Part shown: positions 6,145 through 62,836 of the stretch, piece by piece
Layout of the letters: the number at the start of each line of letters is the position of its first letter
How positions within the stretch are numbered: the first letter of the stretch is position 1
Assembly: GCA_001897535.1 (NCBI GenBank)
Contig: MKTC01000007.1
Span: 1 to 64,000, forward strand
Direction of reading: 5' to 3'
Length of the DNA: 64,000 nt
Origin: Bacteroidetes bacterium 37-13
Lineage (GTDB): Bacteria; Bacteroidota; Bacteroidia; Chitinophagales; LD1
Program-made: the position numbers and the translations under genes
Notes under the pieces: generated by a model
What the model saw: only the letters and a program-made list of their open reading frames with translations
Told to the model about the DNA's origin: nothing
Database searches by the model: none

Positions 6145-8973
6145 TTACTTAATCAAAGTGAATTTTAAAGTTTTTGATGCAGTGTTTTTACGGATATTTA
6201 CTAAGTAAATTCCTTTTGCAGCATCACTTAAATTAAAGTTGTGTTCTTTTTGAACTTTTGCTGTTGCAACCACTTCGCCAATTAAATTGCTAATTGTTAC
6301 ATCGTATAAATTGTCATCTCCAATTTCCAATTTGAATGTTCCGTTGTTTGGATTTGGCATCAATTTCACAGCAAAGCCTGAGCTAATATCGCTAATGCTA
6401 ACACCGGTAACATTTTGTGCAGCACTGGTTGCTTGGCAGCTATTGCCATCGGTAACTACAACAGTGTATGAACCATTTTGTGTAGCAGTATAATTTTGTG
6501 AAGTAGCACCATTAATGTTATTGCCGTTTAATTGCCATTGGTAGCTCGAAAATGCTCCTGTGCTTAATGCGTTGCCATTAGCAGTAATTGTAGGCGAAGG
6601 AAGTTGGTTTACTGTAACAGTAACAGTAGCAGTAGCACTGCAACCATTAGTGTTAGAAACGGTTACTGTATAAGTAGTTGCAGTTGTTGGATTTACTTTT
6701 ACCACAGCATTAGTACCTAAACTATTTGACCAAGCATAAGTTCCACCTCCGGTTGCAGTTAAAGTTGCAGTATCTCCGGCACAAATAGTATTGTTCCCGG
6801 TAATAGCAGCAGTTGGCGCACCAGGGTTGCTTAAGTTTACAGTAGCAGTAGCAGTACAGCCATTCACATCAGTTACTGTGGCAGTATAGCTTCCGGCAGG
6901 CAAGTTGCTTGCAGTGGCAGAGTTTTGAGCAGGATTGGTGTTCCAGCTATAAGTATAAGCCGGAGTGCCACCTGTTGCAGAAACACTCACTGTGCCGTTT
7001 GATTGACCGCAGTTAGGTTGAGTGCCAGCTGTGGCAGTAGCAGCAAGTGTATTTGGTGTATTGTTGATGGTTACGCTCGCAGTAGCAGTAGCTCCTGATG
7101 GTACATCAGTTACAGTAACTTGGTATGTTCCAGGATTTAATCCGGAAACACCTGAGGCAGAACTTCCATTACTCCATGCGTAAGTATAATTTGTTCCTCC
7201 ACTTGGCGCAGCTTCTGCAGTTCCTTTGGTATTGCAAATTACATCTGTTTTAGTCATGTTTATTGTAATAGTAGGAGCAGAGCAAGAAATAGCAACAAAG
7301 TTAGTTGTTTGTGCAGAGTTTACCGCAGGGCAAGTAACACCTTGATTTACTGCACGAATAAAAGTTGGTTCATAGCCTGTAACTCCAAATGTAGAAGCTA
7401 AAGTAGAAAGTTCACCACTCTGTGTGCCAAAGCCTCCGGTAATTGTTACATAAAATAGAATTTTATATTGACCACAAGCAGCATTTGTAGTTCCACTTAT
7501 TCTGTAGCAGCCATTTGTTCCACCATTATATGTAGCAGGATTTTGGTTAAGTGTAGCAGTTAAACCGGTTGGTACATTTCTAATGCTATCTACTTTTAAG
7601 CTGGTAACCGGATAGGTTAGAATAGTTGCAGGTACAATAAATGAAATATCTTGTGAGAATGCTTGCCCGTTAATAGCACAAGGAATTGCTGAAGATGCCG
7701 GACTAAACCCTGAACCACCCGGAACTGGTGTACAAACGCCTTGTGCAGCTAAGGTTGTGAAAGTTATATCTTGGCCGTTGGTAGTACCATCTGCATTTAC
7801 ACCTCTTGCGCGAAAATGGTAAGTAGTGTTAGGTTGCAAATTAGATACATTTGCTGCAATAGGAGTAGTTGTTGTACCTGTAACTGTAGCAGGGGATCCT
7901 AAATAAGGAGTGCCATAAGCTACTGTTGTGCCAAAATCGAAATAAGATTGAGTGCTTACACTATTTGCATTTATAGAACCATTAAGAGTAGCACTGGTTG
8001 AGGTTATATTGGTAGCAGCATTGGTAACTACTGTTGGCGGAGTTGGAGTGCTTATAGTTACATAAGCTACAATCCAAAAATCACCATAAAATAATTCGCA
8101 GGTAGCAAATTCTAAGGTATTGTTGCCATCACAATCATTGCCAAGTAATCCATAACCGGAAAGATTTGTAACAGGAGCAGAGGTGGTTGTGTAATTTATA
8201 TACCCAAAGCTATTGCCTGGAACAGTTGAATTGCTGTAAAGGCAAGCTCCTGCACAGTTGTTCCTGTAGCCGGTTAATAAATTAAATTTATTAGCAGTAT
8301 CGCCTTGGTAATCAACACGCACACCAAACGGAGCGCCTACAGGCAATGTAGTATTTACATTAAATGTTTTTAGGTAAACGCCATTCATTACGGGGATTCC
8401 TTGTGCATTTAAGTTGCCGGTTCCGGTTGCATTTAATGTTTGTGACCATAGTGCCGGAGTTGTAACAACTGTATTTGCGCCAGTTCCGCTTATGCTTGCC
8501 TGATTAATATTAAATACTGAAACTGTTAAAGTATCAGGCTTTGTAGTAAGTGTTCTGTTATGAAAATAATACACATCAACACTATCTACTCTCACTGTTT
8601 TGCCGGCATAACCTCCTAAATCTTGCGATGGATAAGTAGCCTGTAAATTTATTAACGAATCAAAAAATACCATACCATTTCTGTAAGTCTGGTTGATATT
8701 ATTTCCATAGCGTAAGTTAATGTTTGTATAGCCTAAGCTAAATCTTTTTCCGGTAGTATCAGCAGCATAATCATTTAAATTATCATCTAAATAGCTAATC
8801 ATAGCTTGCGTTGAGCTACGTCCCGCATTAGTTTTAATTGCTGGTTTTTGTACATTAAATGTATTCGTAGGTTTTTGAAGCCCGGGAGCTTTAACGTAAC
8901 TCGTAACTAAATTTTGAGCGTTTAGCGCAACAACCGTTATGAGTAATGTTGCTAGTAAGGAGAGTTTTCTCAT
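6145..8973 (-). CDS. Type IX-secreted multidomain protein with PKD/SprB-like repeats
   Basis: 942 residues with an N-terminal signal peptide (MRKLSLLATLLITVVALNAQ). A beta-rich N-terminal half is followed by a fibronectin-like segment (about residues 310-410, TNITSTSATLNGSINANS) and at least three repeats of the SprB/PKD type with GGTPAYTYSW and GSYTATVTD signatures (about 570-850). A C-terminal sorting domain starts at VKLMPNPNNGTFKL and ends KTLKFTLIK. It is therefore a predicted substrate of the type IX secretion system acting at the cell surface. The low-complexity threonine-rich repeats could recombine. No enzymatic motif was recognised. It has its own promoter element and terminator, so it is a single-gene unit. 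Confidence 0.85.
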   Translation of the reverse strand: MRKLSLLATLLITVVALNAQNLVTSYVKAPGLQKPTNTFNVQKPAIKTNAGRSSTQAMISYLDDNLNDYAADTTGKRFSLGYTNINLRYGNNINQTYRNGMVFFDSLINLQATYPSQDLGGYAGKTVRVDSVDVYYFHNRTLTTKPDTLTVSVFNINQASISGTGANTVVTTPALWSQTLNATGTGNLNAQGIPVMNGVYLKTFNVNTTLPVGAPFGVRVDYQGDTANKFNLLTGYRNNCAGACLYSNSTVPGNSFGYINYTTTSAPVTNLSGYGLLGNDCDGNNTLEFATCELFYGDFWIVAYVTISTPTPPTVVTNAATNITSTSATLNGSINANSVSTQSYFDFGTTVAYGTPYLGSPATVTGTTTTPIAANVSNLQPNTTYHFRARGVNADGTTNGQDITFTTLAAQGVCTPVPGGSGFSPASSAIPCAINGQAFSQDISFIVPATILTYPVTSLKVDSIRNVPTGLTATLNQNPATYNGGTNGCYRISGTTNAACGQYKILFYVTITGGFGTQSGELSTLASTFGVTGYEPTFIRAVNQGVTCPAVNSAQTTNFVAISCSAPTITINMTKTDVICNTKGTAEAAPSGGTNYTYAWSNGSSASGVSGLNPGTYQVTVTDVPSGATATASVTINNTPNTLAATATAGTQPNCGQSNGTVSVSATGGTPAYTYSWNTNPAQNSATASNLPAGSYTATVTDVNGCTATATVNLSNPGAPTAAITGNNTICAGDTATLTATGGGTYAWSNSLGTNAVVKVNPTTATTYTVTVSNTNGCSATATVTVTVNQLPSPTITANGNALSTGAFSSYQWQLNGNNINGATSQNYTATQNGSYTVVVTDGNSCQATSAAQNVTGVSISDISSGFAVKLMPNPNNGTFKLEIGDDNLYDVTISNLIGEVVATAKVQKEHNFNLSDAAKGIYLVNIRKNTASKTLKFTLIK

Positions 8974-46193: not shown

Positions 46194-46481
46194 TTATGAT
46201 AGTTTTAAAGCATTTTTAAAAAGTTCGCGCACTTCTTTCAAATTACACAGTGGCTCTTCGGGTATGTGCAGCAGGTGTGTGAGTTGGTGTACAATTCCTT
46301 CATCTGATAGGCATTCGTGGCTTGGTATTTCTTTTAAAAAACAAATAATACAGGCAAGGTGCAACGCTCTTGGTATTTGTGTGGCAAACCGATCGTTACT
46401 CATCTGAACAAAGTCTTCGTATTCCGATTTTAATTCTTGATACGAAAGAGAGTAGTGTGTTCCTTTTAAAACGTAATTCAT
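46194..46481 (-). CDS. Hypothetical early prophage protein
   Basis: 95 residues, helical, two Cys in HLACIICFLKEIP. It is adjacent to the next gene (stop and start one base apart) and follows the structured RNA region. No family recognised. Confidence 0.5.
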   Translation of the reverse strand: MNYVLKGTHYSLSYQELKSEYEDFVQMSNDRFATQIPRALHLACIICFLKEIPSHECLSDEGIVHQLTHLLHIPEEPLCNLKEVRELFKNALKLS

Positions 46482-46690
46482 TTTATGTTGAATTTTTAGT
46501 TACTTAATTAAGCGGAGCGGCTGCATCTTTTCACCGCTCCGCGCTGTTATCAATCAGCCTATAGGCTCTATGCCGCGCTTTCGCGCCTTTTTTGAAATAT
46601 TGCTCGGTGGGCGGAGTTGAACCGCCATTGCTCACGGATTTTAACCGTTTCAGCCCCTGCACCGATACTCTTTTGAAAGCAAATCACAAC
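46482..46690 (-). other. Structured non-coding segment inside the early operon
   Basis: This 209-base gap in an otherwise gapless operon contains, on the transcribed strand: a tRNA-like fold (46604-46665), GCGCGAAAGCGC (46575-46586), the palindrome AGCCTATAGGCT (46556-46567) and a perfect 9-bp stem GCGGAGCGG/CCGCTCCGC (46512-46520 with 46534-46542). No coding frame spans it. Confidence 0.65.
46604..46665 (-). ncRNA. tRNA-like RNA with T-arm but no D-arm
   Basis: Outer stem TCGGTG/CACCGA (6 bp) encloses two hairpins. One is ACGG-TTAAAAT-CCGT with an extra GCT/AGC helix below it and a 7-base loop like an anticodon arm (46630-46654). The other is GGCGG-TTCAACT-CCGCC (46610-46626), an ideal T-arm whose loop begins TTC. 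Only 12 bases lie between outer stem and the anticodon-like stem, so no D-arm can form. It is not a canonical tRNA; it may be a tRNA mimic or a three-way-junction regulatory RNA. Confidence 0.5.
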
Positions 46691-47320
46691 TTATATTGAT
46701 GAAAAATTTAGTTGAATGTCTTTGTAACTGCCGTCCTCCTCCCTGATTGCAACACTGTAATATGTTTTACTATCAGGTCTGCGAATGCTGTTTTCGAGGT
46801 GCGTCATGGCACGTTGATACAAATCGTGTTTTATCTTGCTGCGATAGTTCAGCAGGCTCATCACCTTCTTAGCATCCAAACGACCTTTTGTGTTGGAGAA
46901 TGCACTTTTTACCAGCTCCTTAATCAAAACGGCTTCGCCTTCGGCTCCGATGTTTTCGTCTATGTACTGGTCGAGCAGCTCCTTGCAAAAGCCGATTTGT
47001 GTTTGGTCAAAATCAATGCGCTCGTTGATGTTGCATTCTACTTTGATGGTTCTGTCAAAATTGTACCATGTGAAATTGCCTTTGCCGGGCTTCTTTTCCA
47101 CTTTTGCTTCGGCACGCTCGGCTGCTTCCACCTCGGCAAAAATGCCGCGTATCAGCTCTTTAAAATCGCTGAGTGATTTGGTGATTTTTGTCGCTTCTTT
47201 TGCCAGCGTGAAAGCCTTGTTTTCTTTCAGCTTTTCAACTTTTGTAATTCTGTTGGCAGGTATCTGAATGCCTGCTTCGTCTGTCCAACTGGCAGAGCCT
47301 GTTTGTTTCAATAGTTCCAT
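46691..47320 (-). CDS. DUF3164-family early protein
   Basis: 209 residues. The family blocks WTDEAGIQIPANRITKVEK...DFKELIRGIFAEVEAAERAEAKVEKKPGKGNFTWYNFDRTIKVECNINERIDFDQTQI...AKELLDQYI-like, and ...KTYYSVAIREEDGSYKDIQLNFSSI are those of DUF3164, common in transposable phages between MuB and gp16-like genes. Function is unknown, presumably in DNA metabolism. The structured RNA follows its stop codon. Confidence 0.85.
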   Translation of the reverse strand: MELLKQTGSASWTDEAGIQIPANRITKVEKLKENKAFTLAKEATKITKSLSDFKELIRGIFAEVEAAERAEAKVEKKPGKGNFTWYNFDRTIKVECNINERIDFDQTQIGFCKELLDQYIDENIGAEGEAVLIKELVKSAFSNTKGRLDAKKVMSLLNYRSKIKHDLYQRAMTHLENSIRRPDSKTYYSVAIREEDGSYKDIQLNFSSI

Positions 47321-47590: not shown

Positions 47591-47785
47591 TTAAATACTC
47601 TTTTCTGCATCGCTGATTTGATAATTCAAATCATTGAGTTGCTTTAGCATTGCCGCCAGTTCTATCGCGCCCGGCACTTGCATGGCTTCTACCACGGCAG
47701 GCGGCAGCTTATCTGCCTGCTCTTTTATTTGCGATTTGAGTTCCTGCCGCTCTATGAGCAGTTCGTTGAATTGTCCGATTGTCAT
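47591..47785 (-). CDS. Small coiled-coil early protein
   Basis: 64 residues, almost entirely helical with heptad-like Leu/Ile/Gln (FNELLIERQELKSQIKEQADKLPP...AMLKQLNDLNYQISDAEKSI). The start overlaps the DnaA-like gene by 4 bases (ATGA type). It could be a dimerising accessory for the DnaA-like protein; inference only. Confidence 0.5.
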   Translation of the reverse strand: MTIGQFNELLIERQELKSQIKEQADKLPPAVVEAMQVPGAIELAAMLKQLNDLNYQISDAEKSI

Positions 47786-48216
47786 AACTGATTGTTTATT
47801 GATTGCTGAATAATGTTCAATGTGTTACGCACTTCGTCAATGTTTTTCAGGTCGTTATTCACGGTGTTGATGCCGTGAATAATGGTGCTGTGGTCGCGAT
47901 GAAAGAACCTGCCAACCTGCTTGTAGCTTGGTTTAAAATGTGATTCGTAAATTAGCTTGTAAGCGATTTGGCGAACTATCACTAAACCGCGCTCGCGGCT
48001 GCGACTGCGTATTTCATGAACGGGATAGCCTGTTGAGTTTTTGATTGCCTGAAACAGTTTTTCAACCCACTCATTAAAATCTTGATTGCCGATTATCACA
48101 CGCGGTTGTGTAAGCAATACTTTCACCGGCTGGTTTAGAATTGCCTGAATTTCGGTTTCAGCTCGTAACAATGCCTTATATATTTCGCCCGATTGGGAAG
48201 TGGTGATGTTTAGCAT
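47782..48216 (-). CDS. DnaA domain IV-like DNA-binding protein
   Basis: 144 residues. The C-terminal 80 residues (IRSRSRERGLVIVRQIAYKLIYESHFKPSYKQVGRFFHRDHSTIIHGINTVNNDL) reproduce the DnaA C-terminal DNA-binding domain, including the signature helix (GRxxxxRDHSTIIH), which reads DnaA boxes. The AAA+ ATPase domain is absent; the N-terminal 60 residues are an unrelated helical part. It might recruit or block host DnaA, or bind its boxes on phage DNA. It overlaps the upstream gene by 7 bases. Confidence 0.85.
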   Translation of the reverse strand: MLNITTSQSGEIYKALLRAETEIQAILNQPVKVLLTQPRVIIGNQDFNEWVEKLFQAIKNSTGYPVHEIRSRSRERGLVIVRQIAYKLIYESHFKPSYKQVGRFFHRDHSTIIHGINTVNNDLKNIDEVRNTLNIIQQSINNQL

Positions 48217-48662
48217 GTTACCTCCTTTCTTTTAGTTGTTTGCACCTGGCGTTGCGCGTCCTCTTCCTTCCTGATGGCATCAATCATTTGAGCCCACGCT
48301 TTATCAGGCACACGGGCGTTGATGTTGTCCGGGTGGTGGCTTTCCAGCCACAGCTTGCGCAGCCAGTTCTTTGTGCTGATGATTGGCTTCACTCCGATGC
48401 CTGTCAAAAACTTGTAGCTGTCTTTATCAATGGCGGCATCCACATTGTAGCTGCCGTATTGCGCTAAAAACACCTCGTCACGCACATCAAAGTGGCGTTT
48501 CCACCAGCTCCAGTAAGCAGATGTCCGTGTCAGGTATTCCACCGCGCCTGTGCAGTTGGCGCAGTTTTCGTTGGCGTAGTTGTAGCCCATTTGCTCTACT
48601 GCTTTTGCATACTCCATATCTGTGAGCTGCAACAGCTCTATAATTGCTTCTTTAGTTTTCAT
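48210..48662 (-). CDS. Hypothetical early prophage protein
   Basis: 150 residues from the ATG at 48662, inside the 3' end of the preceding ATPase gene (11-base overlap). Contains YANENCANCTGAVEYLTRTSAYWSWWKRHFDVRDEVFLAQYGSYNVD and a basic C-terminus. The C-A-N-C pair and Trp-rich helix are distinctive, but no family was recognised. It may be a replication or host-takeover factor by position. Confidence 0.5.
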   Translation of the reverse strand: MKTKEAIIELLQLTDMEYAKAVEQMGYNYANENCANCTGAVEYLTRTSAYWSWWKRHFDVRDEVFLAQYGSYNVDAAIDKDSYKFLTGIGVKPIISTKNWLRKLWLESHHPDNINARVPDKAWAQMIDAIRKEEDAQRQVQTTKRKEVTC

Positions 48663-49374
48663 TGGTGCTGTTGTTTGGTTTAGTTCCCCAATATTTTGCT
48701 TCGCCTTCGCCCCAAATGGTGTATTCTCCACCGGGGTTGTAGCGTCCGTTGCTGATGGCTTTAAAGCCCTCTACCCATATCTTCAGGTCAGCATCGTACT
48801 TTATCTTTTCGGCTATCTTGCCTTCAGGATTTTTGCCAACCGCTTGGCTGTTGATGATGAACAGCACCTTTGGGTGTGCCTTCACCATTTCGGTAAAAGC
48901 CTGAAAGCGCAAGCCGTGGCAGTATTGTATGGTGTCAATCACGCAGGCTGTGGGTGCTTTGTGTTTGCTCAGGCGTTCTCCCATTTCTTCAAAACTCTCA
49001 TTGCCAATGATGAAGTTCTTATTGCTGGCATCCACTCCGGCATCTATCAGGGCGTTGCGCATGGTCAGGCGGTTGCCCTGCTCCAAGCTGTTGAAAAACA
49101 ACTTGCGGCTGTTGCTGATTTCTTTTGCAAGCTCTATCAGAAAGCGCGTTTTTGCATTGCCGCTGTTGCCCCAAATAAACCACACACCGTTATCTTCCGG
49201 CTCCCCGAAGGCGGCTTTCCATTCCGCGCCCCATTGTATTGTTTCATAGTTTGTTGCATAAATTTTTTGTATGGAATAAGCGCGAGCCATGTTGGTGCTG
49301 TTGTAGTTGTAATCTGTAAGTGTTGTTATGGCGGTGGATACATAAAGCAGTGCCGCTGTGATGGTGTGTGTCAT
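48652..49374 (-). CDS. RecA/DnaB-like P-loop ATPase
   Basis: 240 residues from the ATG at 49374, which overlaps the MuB-like stop as TAATG; an internal ATG at 49290 (MARAYSIQKIYATNY) is a fair alternative. Walker A is WGNSGNAKTRFLIELA, Walker B is TACVIDTIQYCHG, and FIINSQAVGKNPEGK follows as a sensor-like motif. The layout recalls RecA-fold ATPases used by phages as recombination or helicase-loading factors. The role next to MuB may be in replication or transposition. Confidence 0.7.
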   Translation of the reverse strand: MTHTITAALLYVSTAITTLTDYNYNSTNMARAYSIQKIYATNYETIQWGAEWKAAFGEPEDNGVWFIWGNSGNAKTRFLIELAKEISNSRKLFFNSLEQGNRLTMRNALIDAGVDASNKNFIIGNESFEEMGERLSKHKAPTACVIDTIQYCHGLRFQAFTEMVKAHPKVLFIINSQAVGKNPEGKIAEKIKYDADLKIWVEGFKAISNGRYNPGGEYTIWGEGEAKYWGTKPNNSTNEN

Positions 49375-50285
49375 TATGCCGATTGTTTTTGGGTTGACAA
49401 AAGCAACAGGCTTTCGGCTCTTCGCAAGCCGCCAATGTGTCCTTCGCTATCTTTGGCAAGGCACTTGTTTACAATCTCGCTCACGTTCACACCGTTTGTG
49501 GCGTTTGCCTTCACCACCTGTGTCAGCAGCGTGCGGTAAAAGCTGATGCGCTCGTTATTGTCAACTGGTGTTACCCTGCCGTATTTGTTGCCGTAGCGGC
49601 TGAAAATCTCTCTGAAACCAACCTTTTGATTTTTGATGCCGCGCGTCAGGTAAGCGCGTAAACCATCGGCTCCCATCATGTACCAGCCGCAACTGTTTTC
49701 GGTAGCGTTCCAAAATTCTTTCAGCTCCAAAAATGCGCCATAGTCCAAGTCACCAGCTTCGTCAATGATTATCACCGGGCGTTCTAACAATTGCAGGTAG
49801 TATTTGATGTTTGCCTTTACATCCACAAACTTTCCGTTGTTGTCCACGCCAATCACTTTGGCAAGCGAGCGCACAAAGTGTTGTTTGGTTTTGGCTTGGC
49901 TGCAATCCACATAAAAGCAGTTGTCAATCGCTTTGCTCAGGTGCTTTGCGGTAAAGGTTTTGCCCAAGTCGGTATCATCTACCAATATGCGGCTCTTGCT
50001 GTTTTCTTTACAAAAAATTACTTCCTCTTCAATGGTGTTGAACACCTCAGTGCGCACCATATTCCACTTGCGTTCGCCAATGGTTACGCCAAGCTCCCTG
50101 CCCATTTGCAGCCACTGTGTATCGCGCAGCAAACCGTCCAAGTCCTTGCCGTTTTTGATTTGAGAGTAAACGCTGCCGTTGATGTCGTACTGCTTTGCAA
50201 AGGCTGCATCGCTTCCGCCAAACTTTTTGCGGGCTTCCAGCAGAGCCGCCACTACTTTGTTTTTAAATTCGGTTGATAATTGCAT
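49374..50285 (-). CDS. MuB-like transposition ATPase
   Basis: 303 residues. An N-terminal helix-turn-helix (about 1-70; FAKQYDINGSVYSQIKNGKD) precedes an AAA+ domain. The P-loop reads DDTDLGKT (103-110), lacking the first glycines of GxxGxGKT; Walker B is VIIIDEAGDLDYG. MuB binds target DNA, delivers it to the transposase and gives target immunity. It lies directly downstream of the transposase gene, as in Mu. Confidence 0.9.
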   Translation of the reverse strand: MQLSTEFKNKVVAALLEARKKFGGSDAAFAKQYDINGSVYSQIKNGKDLDGLLRDTQWLQMGRELGVTIGERKWNMVRTEVFNTIEEEVIFCKENSKSRILVDDTDLGKTFTAKHLSKAIDNCFYVDCSQAKTKQHFVRSLAKVIGVDNNGKFVDVKANIKYYLQLLERPVIIIDEAGDLDYGAFLELKEFWNATENSCGWYMMGADGLRAYLTRGIKNQKVGFREIFSRYGNKYGRVTPVDNNERISFYRTLLTQVVKANATNGVNVSEIVNKCLAKDSEGHIGGLRRAESLLLLSTQKQSA

Positions 50286-50308: not shown

Positions 50309-52360
50309 TTAAAATCTATCGTAAAGGCTTTTTGAAGTGGTTTTAACCGTTGTTTCTTTATGTTCAATGGTTTCAATTATCTCAGCGTCCACAGGCTCTT
50401 CCACCGTGCGCCTTTCAATGCCTGCAATACTGAAACGCTTGCTTTTCGGCTGCTCGTTTTCGATGATGATGGTTTGGTTGATGGCTTTGCCCATTCGGTG
50501 CGCGTAGCCTTCCACGGTGGCGCGGTAAGCGGCTGTAAGCCTTTCGTTTTCGCGGCATCGGTCTGTTTGCTCCAATTTAGCGCGGTGAAATGGCAATTCG
50601 TCCAGCAGCTCGCAGATAAACCTGCCTTCCATGTTGTGAACGTGCGCTTTCAACACCTTTCCCTCGTTATCATCCAGCCAAAAAACCTGCACCTCTTCGC
50701 CTTCAATCTCGCTCATCACGTTTAGTAGCGTATCGCCCAATGCCACTTGGCTTTCAAATCCAATCACACGCTGTTTTCCTTGCAGCATGATTCTGCCCAA
50801 TGCCATGCTGCTTTTGGTGCAGTATCCCAAGTGTGGAAGTATTCCATGCCAGTTGGTTGGTTTAAGGTCAGGGTGTTGCTTATCCATCAGCACATCCCAT
50901 CGGCTCATGCCGGGGTGCAGTTGTTGATTCGGGTGCAATTGGTTGTTCCAATCTTCAATCATCTTCAGCTCGCGCTCCACAATCGCATCTTTCGGCAGGT
51001 ATTTAATTTCACCGGGCTTTGATTGCAGGTGTTCAGCTTTAGCATGCGGACGCGCCATGAATTCTTCGTACTGGCGTTCGTGGTTATTACGCAATTCTCC
51101 AAACGTGCGCTCAATTCGCTTAGAACGCGCCATGTTTGGGATAATGTGAACCGCTTGGAACATTGCCCCTGCCGATAGAAATGTTTGTGCAAACGAGCTG
51201 TTAAGCGATGATTCGCACTCAATCTCATTTGGCATGTTCAAACCCCATGCCGTGTAGTTGCGCACCAGTTGGCGGTAGAATTCAATGATGATGCCGTCTT
51301 TAGTGTCACCATGCACCCAAGCGGTAAAGGCTTGGCTGCCCAAATCTTGCGCCATGTAAAACCACATGCGGTTGCCTGCGCCTTCGCCCCATTTGTATGG
51401 CGGCTGCCTGTCATCCACGCTGATGATGCTGCCTGAGTAAGCAGGTTGCTCCATGCTTGCGTGCGGTATGTATTTGCCCATATACTTTTGGCGGTCTCCT
51501 GCGCGTTTAAGATGTGTTACTATGCGGTTATCCCAATCGCTCAGGTAGTTATACACGCTGCTTTCGCTAATCTTTTTATAGCATTCGGCTTTCGGGTTGT
51601 GCAGCTCGCCTGTTTCACCGTTCACTATTTCAATTTTGCCGCTTAAAAAGGCATTGTACTTTGCCGAAACCTCAAAGTGTGTAGGTTTTTTGCGCTGCCC
51701 GGCAAAAATGTCATTCCACAACTGTATCATTTCGCGTGTAACCACCTGCGCGTTTGTGTTGTTGGCTCTGCCGTCAATCAGGCAGTTGTAACCTTCACGG
51801 ATGTAGCGGTTTAGCTTATCGTTCAGCTTGCGGGCGTTTTTTGGAAGGTTGTGCTGCAATCCGTTGTGTTTTAGCTTCAAAACATTGTTGAAGTCAGCGC
51901 AATCAGCCGCTAAACCTGCTGTAAGGTCTCTGCGCGGGTTGCCCAATCGCTTGGTCATGGTTTCGCGGTTGGTGCGCAGCGCAGCCAGTGCATTCAACAC
52001 GCTGGCATTGATGGTGTATTTTGAAATTTGGAAAGGTTCGAGCGATTTTCCGTTGGTGTGGCGAAATTTGTCATAGAAAGCGCGGGCTGCTGCGTCCATA
52101 GTAAAGAACTCTTCCAGCGCGTTAAATTCTTTTGCCGGGTTGCCCAATGTTTCGATGATGCGTTCGCGGTGTTGTTGTGGTATCGCGTTCAGCTCTATAA
52201 GCGATGGGCGACCGTTGCCACCGGGGCGAGTTTTAAAACCAAATTTCTTTGCATTTTTAACCCATTCATCCCAACGCCATTGCTCTACTATTCCTTTCTC
52301 CTTAACTGCGCAAGCAGCTACACATAATTTACCATCAAATTCAATATACGCTGTATTCAT
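50309..52360 (-). CDS. MuA-like DDE transposase
   Basis: 683 residues, similar in length to MuA. The catalytic core starts SGSIISVDDRQPPYKW (Asp316); the usual second Asp is replaced in PNEIECESSLNSSF by Glu381/Glu383; the third acidic residue is Glu417 in SKRIERTFGELR. Spacing 316 to 383 is 67 residues, the same as D269-D336 in MuA. A C-terminal MuB-interaction-like tail ends KSLYDRF. It cuts and joins the prophage ends in replicative transposition. It is transcribed with the small HTH gene at 52362. Confidence 0.93.
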   Translation of the reverse strand: MNTAYIEFDGKLCVAACAVKEKGIVEQWRWDEWVKNAKKFGFKTRPGGNGRPSLIELNAIPQQHRERIIETLGNPAKEFNALEEFFTMDAAARAFYDKFRHTNGKSLEPFQISKYTINASVLNALAALRTNRETMTKRLGNPRRDLTAGLAADCADFNNVLKLKHNGLQHNLPKNARKLNDKLNRYIREGYNCLIDGRANNTNAQVVTREMIQLWNDIFAGQRKKPTHFEVSAKYNAFLSGKIEIVNGETGELHNPKAECYKKISESSVYNYLSDWDNRIVTHLKRAGDRQKYMGKYIPHASMEQPAYSGSIISVDDRQPPYKWGEGAGNRMWFYMAQDLGSQAFTAWVHGDTKDGIIIEFYRQLVRNYTAWGLNMPNEIECESSLNSSFAQTFLSAGAMFQAVHIIPNMARSKRIERTFGELRNNHERQYEEFMARPHAKAEHLQSKPGEIKYLPKDAIVERELKMIEDWNNQLHPNQQLHPGMSRWDVLMDKQHPDLKPTNWHGILPHLGYCTKSSMALGRIMLQGKQRVIGFESQVALGDTLLNVMSEIEGEEVQVFWLDDNEGKVLKAHVHNMEGRFICELLDELPFHRAKLEQTDRCRENERLTAAYRATVEGYAHRMGKAINQTIIIENEQPKSKRFSIAGIERRTVEEPVDAEIIETIEHKETTVKTTSKSLYDRF

Positions 52361-62756: not shown

Positions 62757-62763
62757 TGTGTAG

Positions 62764-62836
62764 TTGCGGGGACAGGACTCGAACCTGTGGCCTTTGGGTT
62801 ATGAGCCCAACGAGCTACCAACTGCTCCACCCCGCG
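62764..62836 (-). tRNA. Initiator tRNA-fMet (CAT)
   Basis: 73 bases. Anticodon CAT in loop CTCATAA; anticodon stem with three G-C pairs (GGG/CCC) and an unpaired C1-A72 (CGCGGGG against CCCCGCA). These two traits mark the bacterial initiator. T-arm CAGGTTCGAGTCCTG is canonical; CCA is not encoded. Confidence 0.93.

Follow-up and report, generated by a model that had tools for sequence, protein, structure and literature searches.

Shrunken tRNA-like RNAs between early genes of Mu-like phages of Bacteroidota and their possible role as punctuation marks

tRNA punctuation is textbook knowledge for mitochondria, and in animal mitochondria the tRNAs abut genes. RNase P, RNase Z, and the CCA-adding enzyme recognize their substrates by the acceptor-T helix, the elbow of T-loop and GG, and the N73 end. 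For bacteria and phages we know only of scattered mRNAs and antisense RNAs as RNase P targets. Plant mitochondrial t-elements are cut out by RNase P and RNase Z, define mRNA ends, and receive a CCA tail, and they are not charged (PMC11658184). In mascRNA (from MALAT1) and menRNA (from NEAT1), which are RNAs of about 60 nt with an acceptor and T-arm, a reduced D region with two guanines, and no usable anticodon, the two D-loop guanines and the T-loop form an elbow that is important for RNase P and RNase Z (PMC11693755). Bacterial RNase P RNA efficiently cleaves hairpins that consist of no more than an acceptor stem, a T-stem, and a T-loop, and phage-derived RNase P substrates other than tRNAs exist, namely M3 RNA and C4 antisense RNA (PMC11143913).

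The window analyzed here (a stretch of 64,000 nucleotides of contig MKTC01000007.1 from Bacteroidetes bacterium 37-13) contains a real shrunken tRNA-like RNA, which belongs to a family found between early genes of Mu-like phages in Bacteroidota. As with t-elements and mitochondrial tRNA punctuation, tRNA-like structures are located where genes meet, on the transcribed strand, and the phage elements abut stop codons. Unlike t-elements, they are found in bacterial viruses, they often consist of acceptor and T-arm only, they are multiplied at successive junctions of one operon, and their cleavage is predicted. The window element resembles a t-element in its proposed working but is not a member of that group, since it is in a prophage in a bacterial genome and not in a plant mitochondrion. 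The phage elements share the anatomy of mascRNA and menRNA; those RNAs, however, are eukaryotic (human) and present as a single copy at the 3' end of a lncRNA, and no sequence homology is expected. They also share acceptor, T-stem, and T-loop with the RNase P model hairpins, while C4-type RNAs fold differently and regulate as antisense RNAs. Compared to canonical tRNA (RF00005), they have the T-arm, acceptor, GG, and N73-C tail, and in some phages the same locus carries a complete initiator-type tRNA, but the window copy has no D-stem and most relatives lack the parts needed for decoding.

The element family was previously uncatalogued, while the proposed mechanism is already known from mitochondria. 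No Rfam 15 family scored at or near its gathering score with the window copy or with the minihelices described below. The open-access literature, within the limits of the collection searched, yielded no report of tRNA-like RNAs in Mu-like or Bacteroidota phages.

The element of the window and its neighbors

The element lies among the early genes of the prophage, all of which are on the minus strand. These are a probable MuA-type transposase gene (50309..52360), a gene for a MuB-type DNA transposition protein (49374..50285, phrog_296), an ATPase gene (48652..49374, phrog_6891), the DUF3164 gene (46691..47320, PF11363 and phrog_846), which is the upstream neighbor of the element and the marker of the locus, and the next gene downstream (46194..46481), which matches phrog_7083 and has no assigned function. 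The window transposase gene has no Pfam hit, and its assignment is based on position and size and on a gene in the same order in another locus, L381, that matches the phrog_310 transposase. The element in L381 has transposase, MuB-type, DUF3164, and ATPase genes as neighbors. The predicted structure of DUF3164 was compared to the PDB in search of an RNA-binding relative, and there was no meaningful match. The window operon also includes a gene with a DnaA C-terminal (DnaA-box binding) domain (47782-48216, minus strand, PF08299). Downstream in the same prophage early region of L381 there is a c4-2 RNA of the C4 antisense RNA clan (L381:13511-13589, Rfam RF02944, 44.6 bits).

The element occupies positions 46604..46665 of the minus strand, in the transcribed direction of the operon, and starts 26 nt past the DUF3164 stop codon. 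Read from 46665 to 46604, it consists of the acceptor 5' strand TCGGTG (46660..46665), a linker CAGGGGCTGAA, an anticodon-like hairpin ACGG-TTAAAAT-CCGT with 4 bp and a 7-nt loop (46634..46648), the spacer GAGCAAT, the T-arm GGCGG-TTCAACT-CCGCC (46610..46626), and the acceptor 3' strand CACCGA (46604..46609), and it is followed by GCAATATTTC. The acceptor stem is stacked on a T-arm with a TTCRANY loop, as in canonical bacterial tRNA, and the loop and T-stem pairing are kept in relatives; the anticodon-like hairpin, which has AAA at the anticodon position, is not. The GCAA tail (46600..46603) contains N73 and C74, like host tRNA genes. Sequence and RNAfold agree with the original prediction of a 62-base element with a 6-bp stem, a TTAAAAT hairpin, and a five-pair TTCAACT T-arm, and the minimum-energy structure adds three pairs below the anticodon-like hairpin. 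The prediction also held that there is no room for a D-arm. This is correct for the D-stem, which is missing from the predicted fold, but D-loop-like guanines persist as GGGG in the linker that replaces the D-arm (46654..46657). They correspond to the tRNA G18-G19 site and would dock on the T-loop.

The window element cannot be proved from its own sequence alone, since its fold energy is unremarkable (z -1.5, with 17 of 200 shuffles equally good), ARAGORN in default mode makes no call, and the Rfam RF00005 score is below the family threshold. The mitochondrial mode of ARAGORN reports it as Phe(aaa), but this call was dropped as evidence because the mode is too permissive and makes about 20 other calls in the window. 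The tRNA-like domain of tmRNA was also discarded as an explanation, as there is no G3-U70 alanine identity pair (a G-U third acceptor pair) and no match to Rfam tmRNA. DNA searches found the window copy alone in its own and related genomes and nothing in named phages. The only close copy in the collections (L002/L041) has an identical DUF3164 protein and the same element, so the stems of the window copy itself have no variants to test. The interval between the element and the next gene (46482-46602, minus strand) holds more stable hairpins, including GCGGAGCGG...CCGCTCCGC (fold z -3.4).

Relatives at the DUF3164 locus

Loci were fetched from virus contigs and genomes via DUF3164 homologues, giving 115 loci after deduplication and 131 when genome finds were added. 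A tRNA-like RNA is found just after DUF3164 in approximately 26 of the 131 Bacteroidota Mu-like phage loci. Within 400 nt after DUF3164, a T-arm with an acceptor is present in 16 of the 115 deduplicated loci, compared to 5 of 3807 control segments (Fisher p 2e-21). When no acceptor is required, T-arms occur at 468 per Mb after DUF3164 and at 9 per Mb elsewhere, which is about 50 times denser, and several of the hits elsewhere are further copies of the element in the same operons. T-arm-like hits in L014 and L016 were dropped because we read them as part of the MuB-type coding sequence. This enrichment at the same locus shows that the window observation is real. It is highly improbable that the window copy is a coincidence within a real class, as its energy score and its single close copy with an identical DUF3164 protein might suggest, since it is located where T-arms are so dense and has the T-loop, acceptor, GG, and G-C-AA tail.

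By position and anatomy there is strong evidence that the window copy belongs to the wider class at this locus: it has the top half immediately after DUF3164 and in coding orientation, along with the GG and C74. Most relatives have a helix with one pair more. In its placement the window copy deviates from the class, with about 120 nt to the next start, which is longer than usual. L045 is also D-armless and has the acceptor CCGGTG/CACCGG where the window has TCGGTG/CACCGA.

The bottom half varies among relatives from a whole initiator-type tRNA to a bare minihelix. Apparently complete tRNA-Met genes are located between DUF3164 and the next gene in five loci (L056:4643-4716, L057:4642-4717, L065:4634-4709, L091:1932-2005, and L093:4628-4701). 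Judged against the host initiator tRNA at 62763-62836, we read these as carrying the initiator marks, namely a GGG:CCC anticodon stem, A11:U24, and a 1:72 mismatch. L013 is a tRNA without an anticodon arm (Rfam tRNA, 43 bits), the middle is expanded in L066, L097, L233, and others, and L039, L105, L149, and L280 have only the acceptor and T-arm. The D-armless layout, which had been taken as the defining feature, is one of several reduced shapes. What is kept across the class is the top half of tRNA (an acceptor and T helix of 11 to 12 bp), the TTCRANY T-loop, the D-loop-like GG, and the N73-C tail, together with the place between genes and the coding strand, while the decoding half is optional or missing.

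The tail and the GG differ in how much they tell. Measured with a uniform 12-nt ruler, position 74 is C in 20 of 24 relatives; host tRNA genes nearly all have C74, mostly as N73-C with no encoded CCA. In 23 of 24 relatives the middle has a GG among its first 20 nt, compared to 16 of 24 expected by chance, and GG conservation is thus weak evidence in members with long middles and carries weight only in minihelices.

On the DUF3164 tree the element requires 16 gains or losses, 13 of them forced by well-supported branches, and it is present in deep branches. L080 was labeled positive on this tree as the sister of L090, although the scanner found no element in it. Many related phages have no element after DUF3164, so it is not required. 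The original prediction proposed that absence from close relatives would count against the structure; such absence is partly true, through frequent gain and loss, but it does not refute the structure.

Covariation and the minihelices of Weeksellaceae

Base pairing is maintained through sequence change at the level of the family. In 22 elements, excluding L043 and L047 for ambiguous acceptor pairing, the 12-bp acceptor and T helix is paired in 92% of cells, a figure inflated because acceptor 5' strands were picked by their ability to pair and the search rule already included the T-stem. Double changes occur at 11 of the 12 pairs, and the covariation score is 0.80, compared to 0.18 when shuffled and at most 0.17 when slid. 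A cleaner test is given by 49 distinct minihelix sequences, which combine genome copies and phage copies. These are paired in 99.1% of cells, with double changes at 9 of 11 pairs, in an alignment fitted to the model, and all 49 have GG in the linker. Compensated pairs are also seen among copies within one phage, L324 (TCCTA/TAGGA and TCCCA/TGGGA). In the two prophages of one genome, G092, the elements after DUF3164 (L273 and L277) have similar flanks and altered acceptor and T stems, with pairing kept. The covariation test suggested for homologous prophages was passed in both sets, at the level of the family. The prediction of a tRNA mimic in a Mu-like early operon was right.

A covariance model, R1, was built from six minihelix sequences. 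It matched 46 copies in 22 of 320 genomes of the Chryseobacterium kimseyorum family (Weeksellaceae) and nothing in 395 genomes spread over the phylum, showing that this sequence family is not a general host element. The window copy was not matched by R1 at E up to 1. In Weeksellaceae prophages a single early operon has the minihelix at up to 3-4 junctions, where it sits between the stop codon of one gene and the start of the following one. Many minihelices begin 1 nt past the stop codon, and most end 13-36 nt before the next start. In the element-bearing phage records checked, the core motif is confined to the operon strand, and element-free phages seldom have it. Elements are also found directly before the probable transposase gene in L324, L326, L328, L330, and L337. 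L042, the sister of L045, has no element after DUF3164 and has a minihelix before the probable transposase gene instead.

The distance of 13-36 nt to the start codon and the well-conserved minihelix sequence in Weeksellaceae would also fit an element that stays uncut in the message and there affects how the next gene is transcribed or translated, for example by binding a phage protein, as an antiterminator, or by contact with the ribosome. This is rather unlikely. At the same junction in other phages the sequence and the bottom half are very different and only the features of the tRNA top half are kept, which argues for general tRNA enzymes over a specific binding partner.

Other tRNA-like forms occur at these junctions. 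A tRNA-Trp(CCA)-like RNA is located directly before the probable transposase gene of L330 (~2240-2320). L334 has a tRNA-Leu-like RNA and a second T-arm-like hairpin, GGTGCAAATCC, at ~8590-8700, and a similar hairpin, GGGTGCAAGTCCC, is found in L078 and L090. The Trp-like and Leu-like forms, the intact tRNA-Met genes, and the frequent losses raise the question of whether the reduced elements are captured host tRNAs decaying as pseudogenes. In bare minihelices, decay would preserve neither the pairing of acceptor and T-stem through double changes nor the GG and the tail, and it would not duplicate minihelices at several junctions. With minihelix covariation largely refuting it already, this explanation is very unlikely.

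Proposed punctuation of early mRNAs

The mini-tRNA in the Mu-like early operon probably acts as a punctuation mark at which host enzymes would separate the early mRNAs. The mini-tRNA would be transcribed within the early operon, and host RNase P and RNase Z would recognize its tRNA top half and excise it. RNase P would cut on the 5' side, just past the upstream stop codon, and RNase Z at the 3' end, perhaps followed by the CCA-adding enzyme. These cuts would release the upstream mRNA and leave the downstream gene with a 5' end of its own and a short A-rich leader; the hosts start translation without Shine-Dalgarno sequences. The excised mini-tRNA would be unable to decode and would probably be discarded. 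We infer this from the features read by the enzymes that the members share, from the precedents of RNase P hairpins and t-elements, and from the lack of Shine-Dalgarno sequences in Bacteroidota, where structure near the start tunes initiation (PMC6847099). We somewhat favor the broader reading that this is a prokaryotic tRNA punctuation system, in which dedicated mini-tRNAs, pared down to what RNase P and RNase Z recognize, have been inserted and duplicated at gene junctions and the early polycistronic mRNA is divided by the host's tRNA maturation enzymes into messages that each have their own leader.

Several lines of evidence make punctuation the probable function, namely the enrichment, the covariation, the freely varying bottom half, the GG, the N73-C tail, the operon strand, the copies at multiple junctions, and the published precedents. 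On the other side, 120 nt separate the window copy from the next start, a distance not seen in most minihelices; an element after DUF3164 is missing from many related phages; and a neutral insertion in a compact operon would also sit between genes. Among the functions initially suggested for the mimic, feeding tRNA-processing enzymes is the one that the evidence favors, with the cutting itself predicted, while sensing of translation found no support.

That elements are optional and often gained or lost, with multiplied copies, some of them whole initiator-type tRNAs, and that the class adjoins a variable early region would also be expected of a decoy or antidote. Excised mini-tRNAs would then accumulate and absorb host immune enzymes acting on the tRNA acceptor or CCA end or on initiator tRNA, or replace damaged tRNAs. 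This is unlikely, since the tight stop-to-start placement at several junctions is unexpected for a decoy and most members lack the anticodon parts that many such enzymes need.

If punctuation is the function, a phage family with repeated covarying mini-tRNAs at gene junctions would offer a natural way to test how small an RNA can be and still be accepted by tRNA-processing enzymes in cells. It would also reveal how an operon can be segmented in bacteria whose translation does without Shine-Dalgarno sequences. These elements are short and portable and lend themselves to easy testing, and if the excised RNAs are stable they are candidates for decoys against phage defenses that target tRNA.

Eight records of named proteobacterial DUF3164 phages have no tRNA annotated at the locus and gave no hits in the T-arm scan, and in six of them the next gene is within about 15 nt of DUF3164. 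Phages without the tRNA-like element often have a GC-rich hairpin with a loop like GTTTCTAC at this junction, as seen in L037, L059, L082, L106, L107, L108, and L151. In some cases T-rich sequence follows the hairpin, which could be a terminator or a different kind of junction element.
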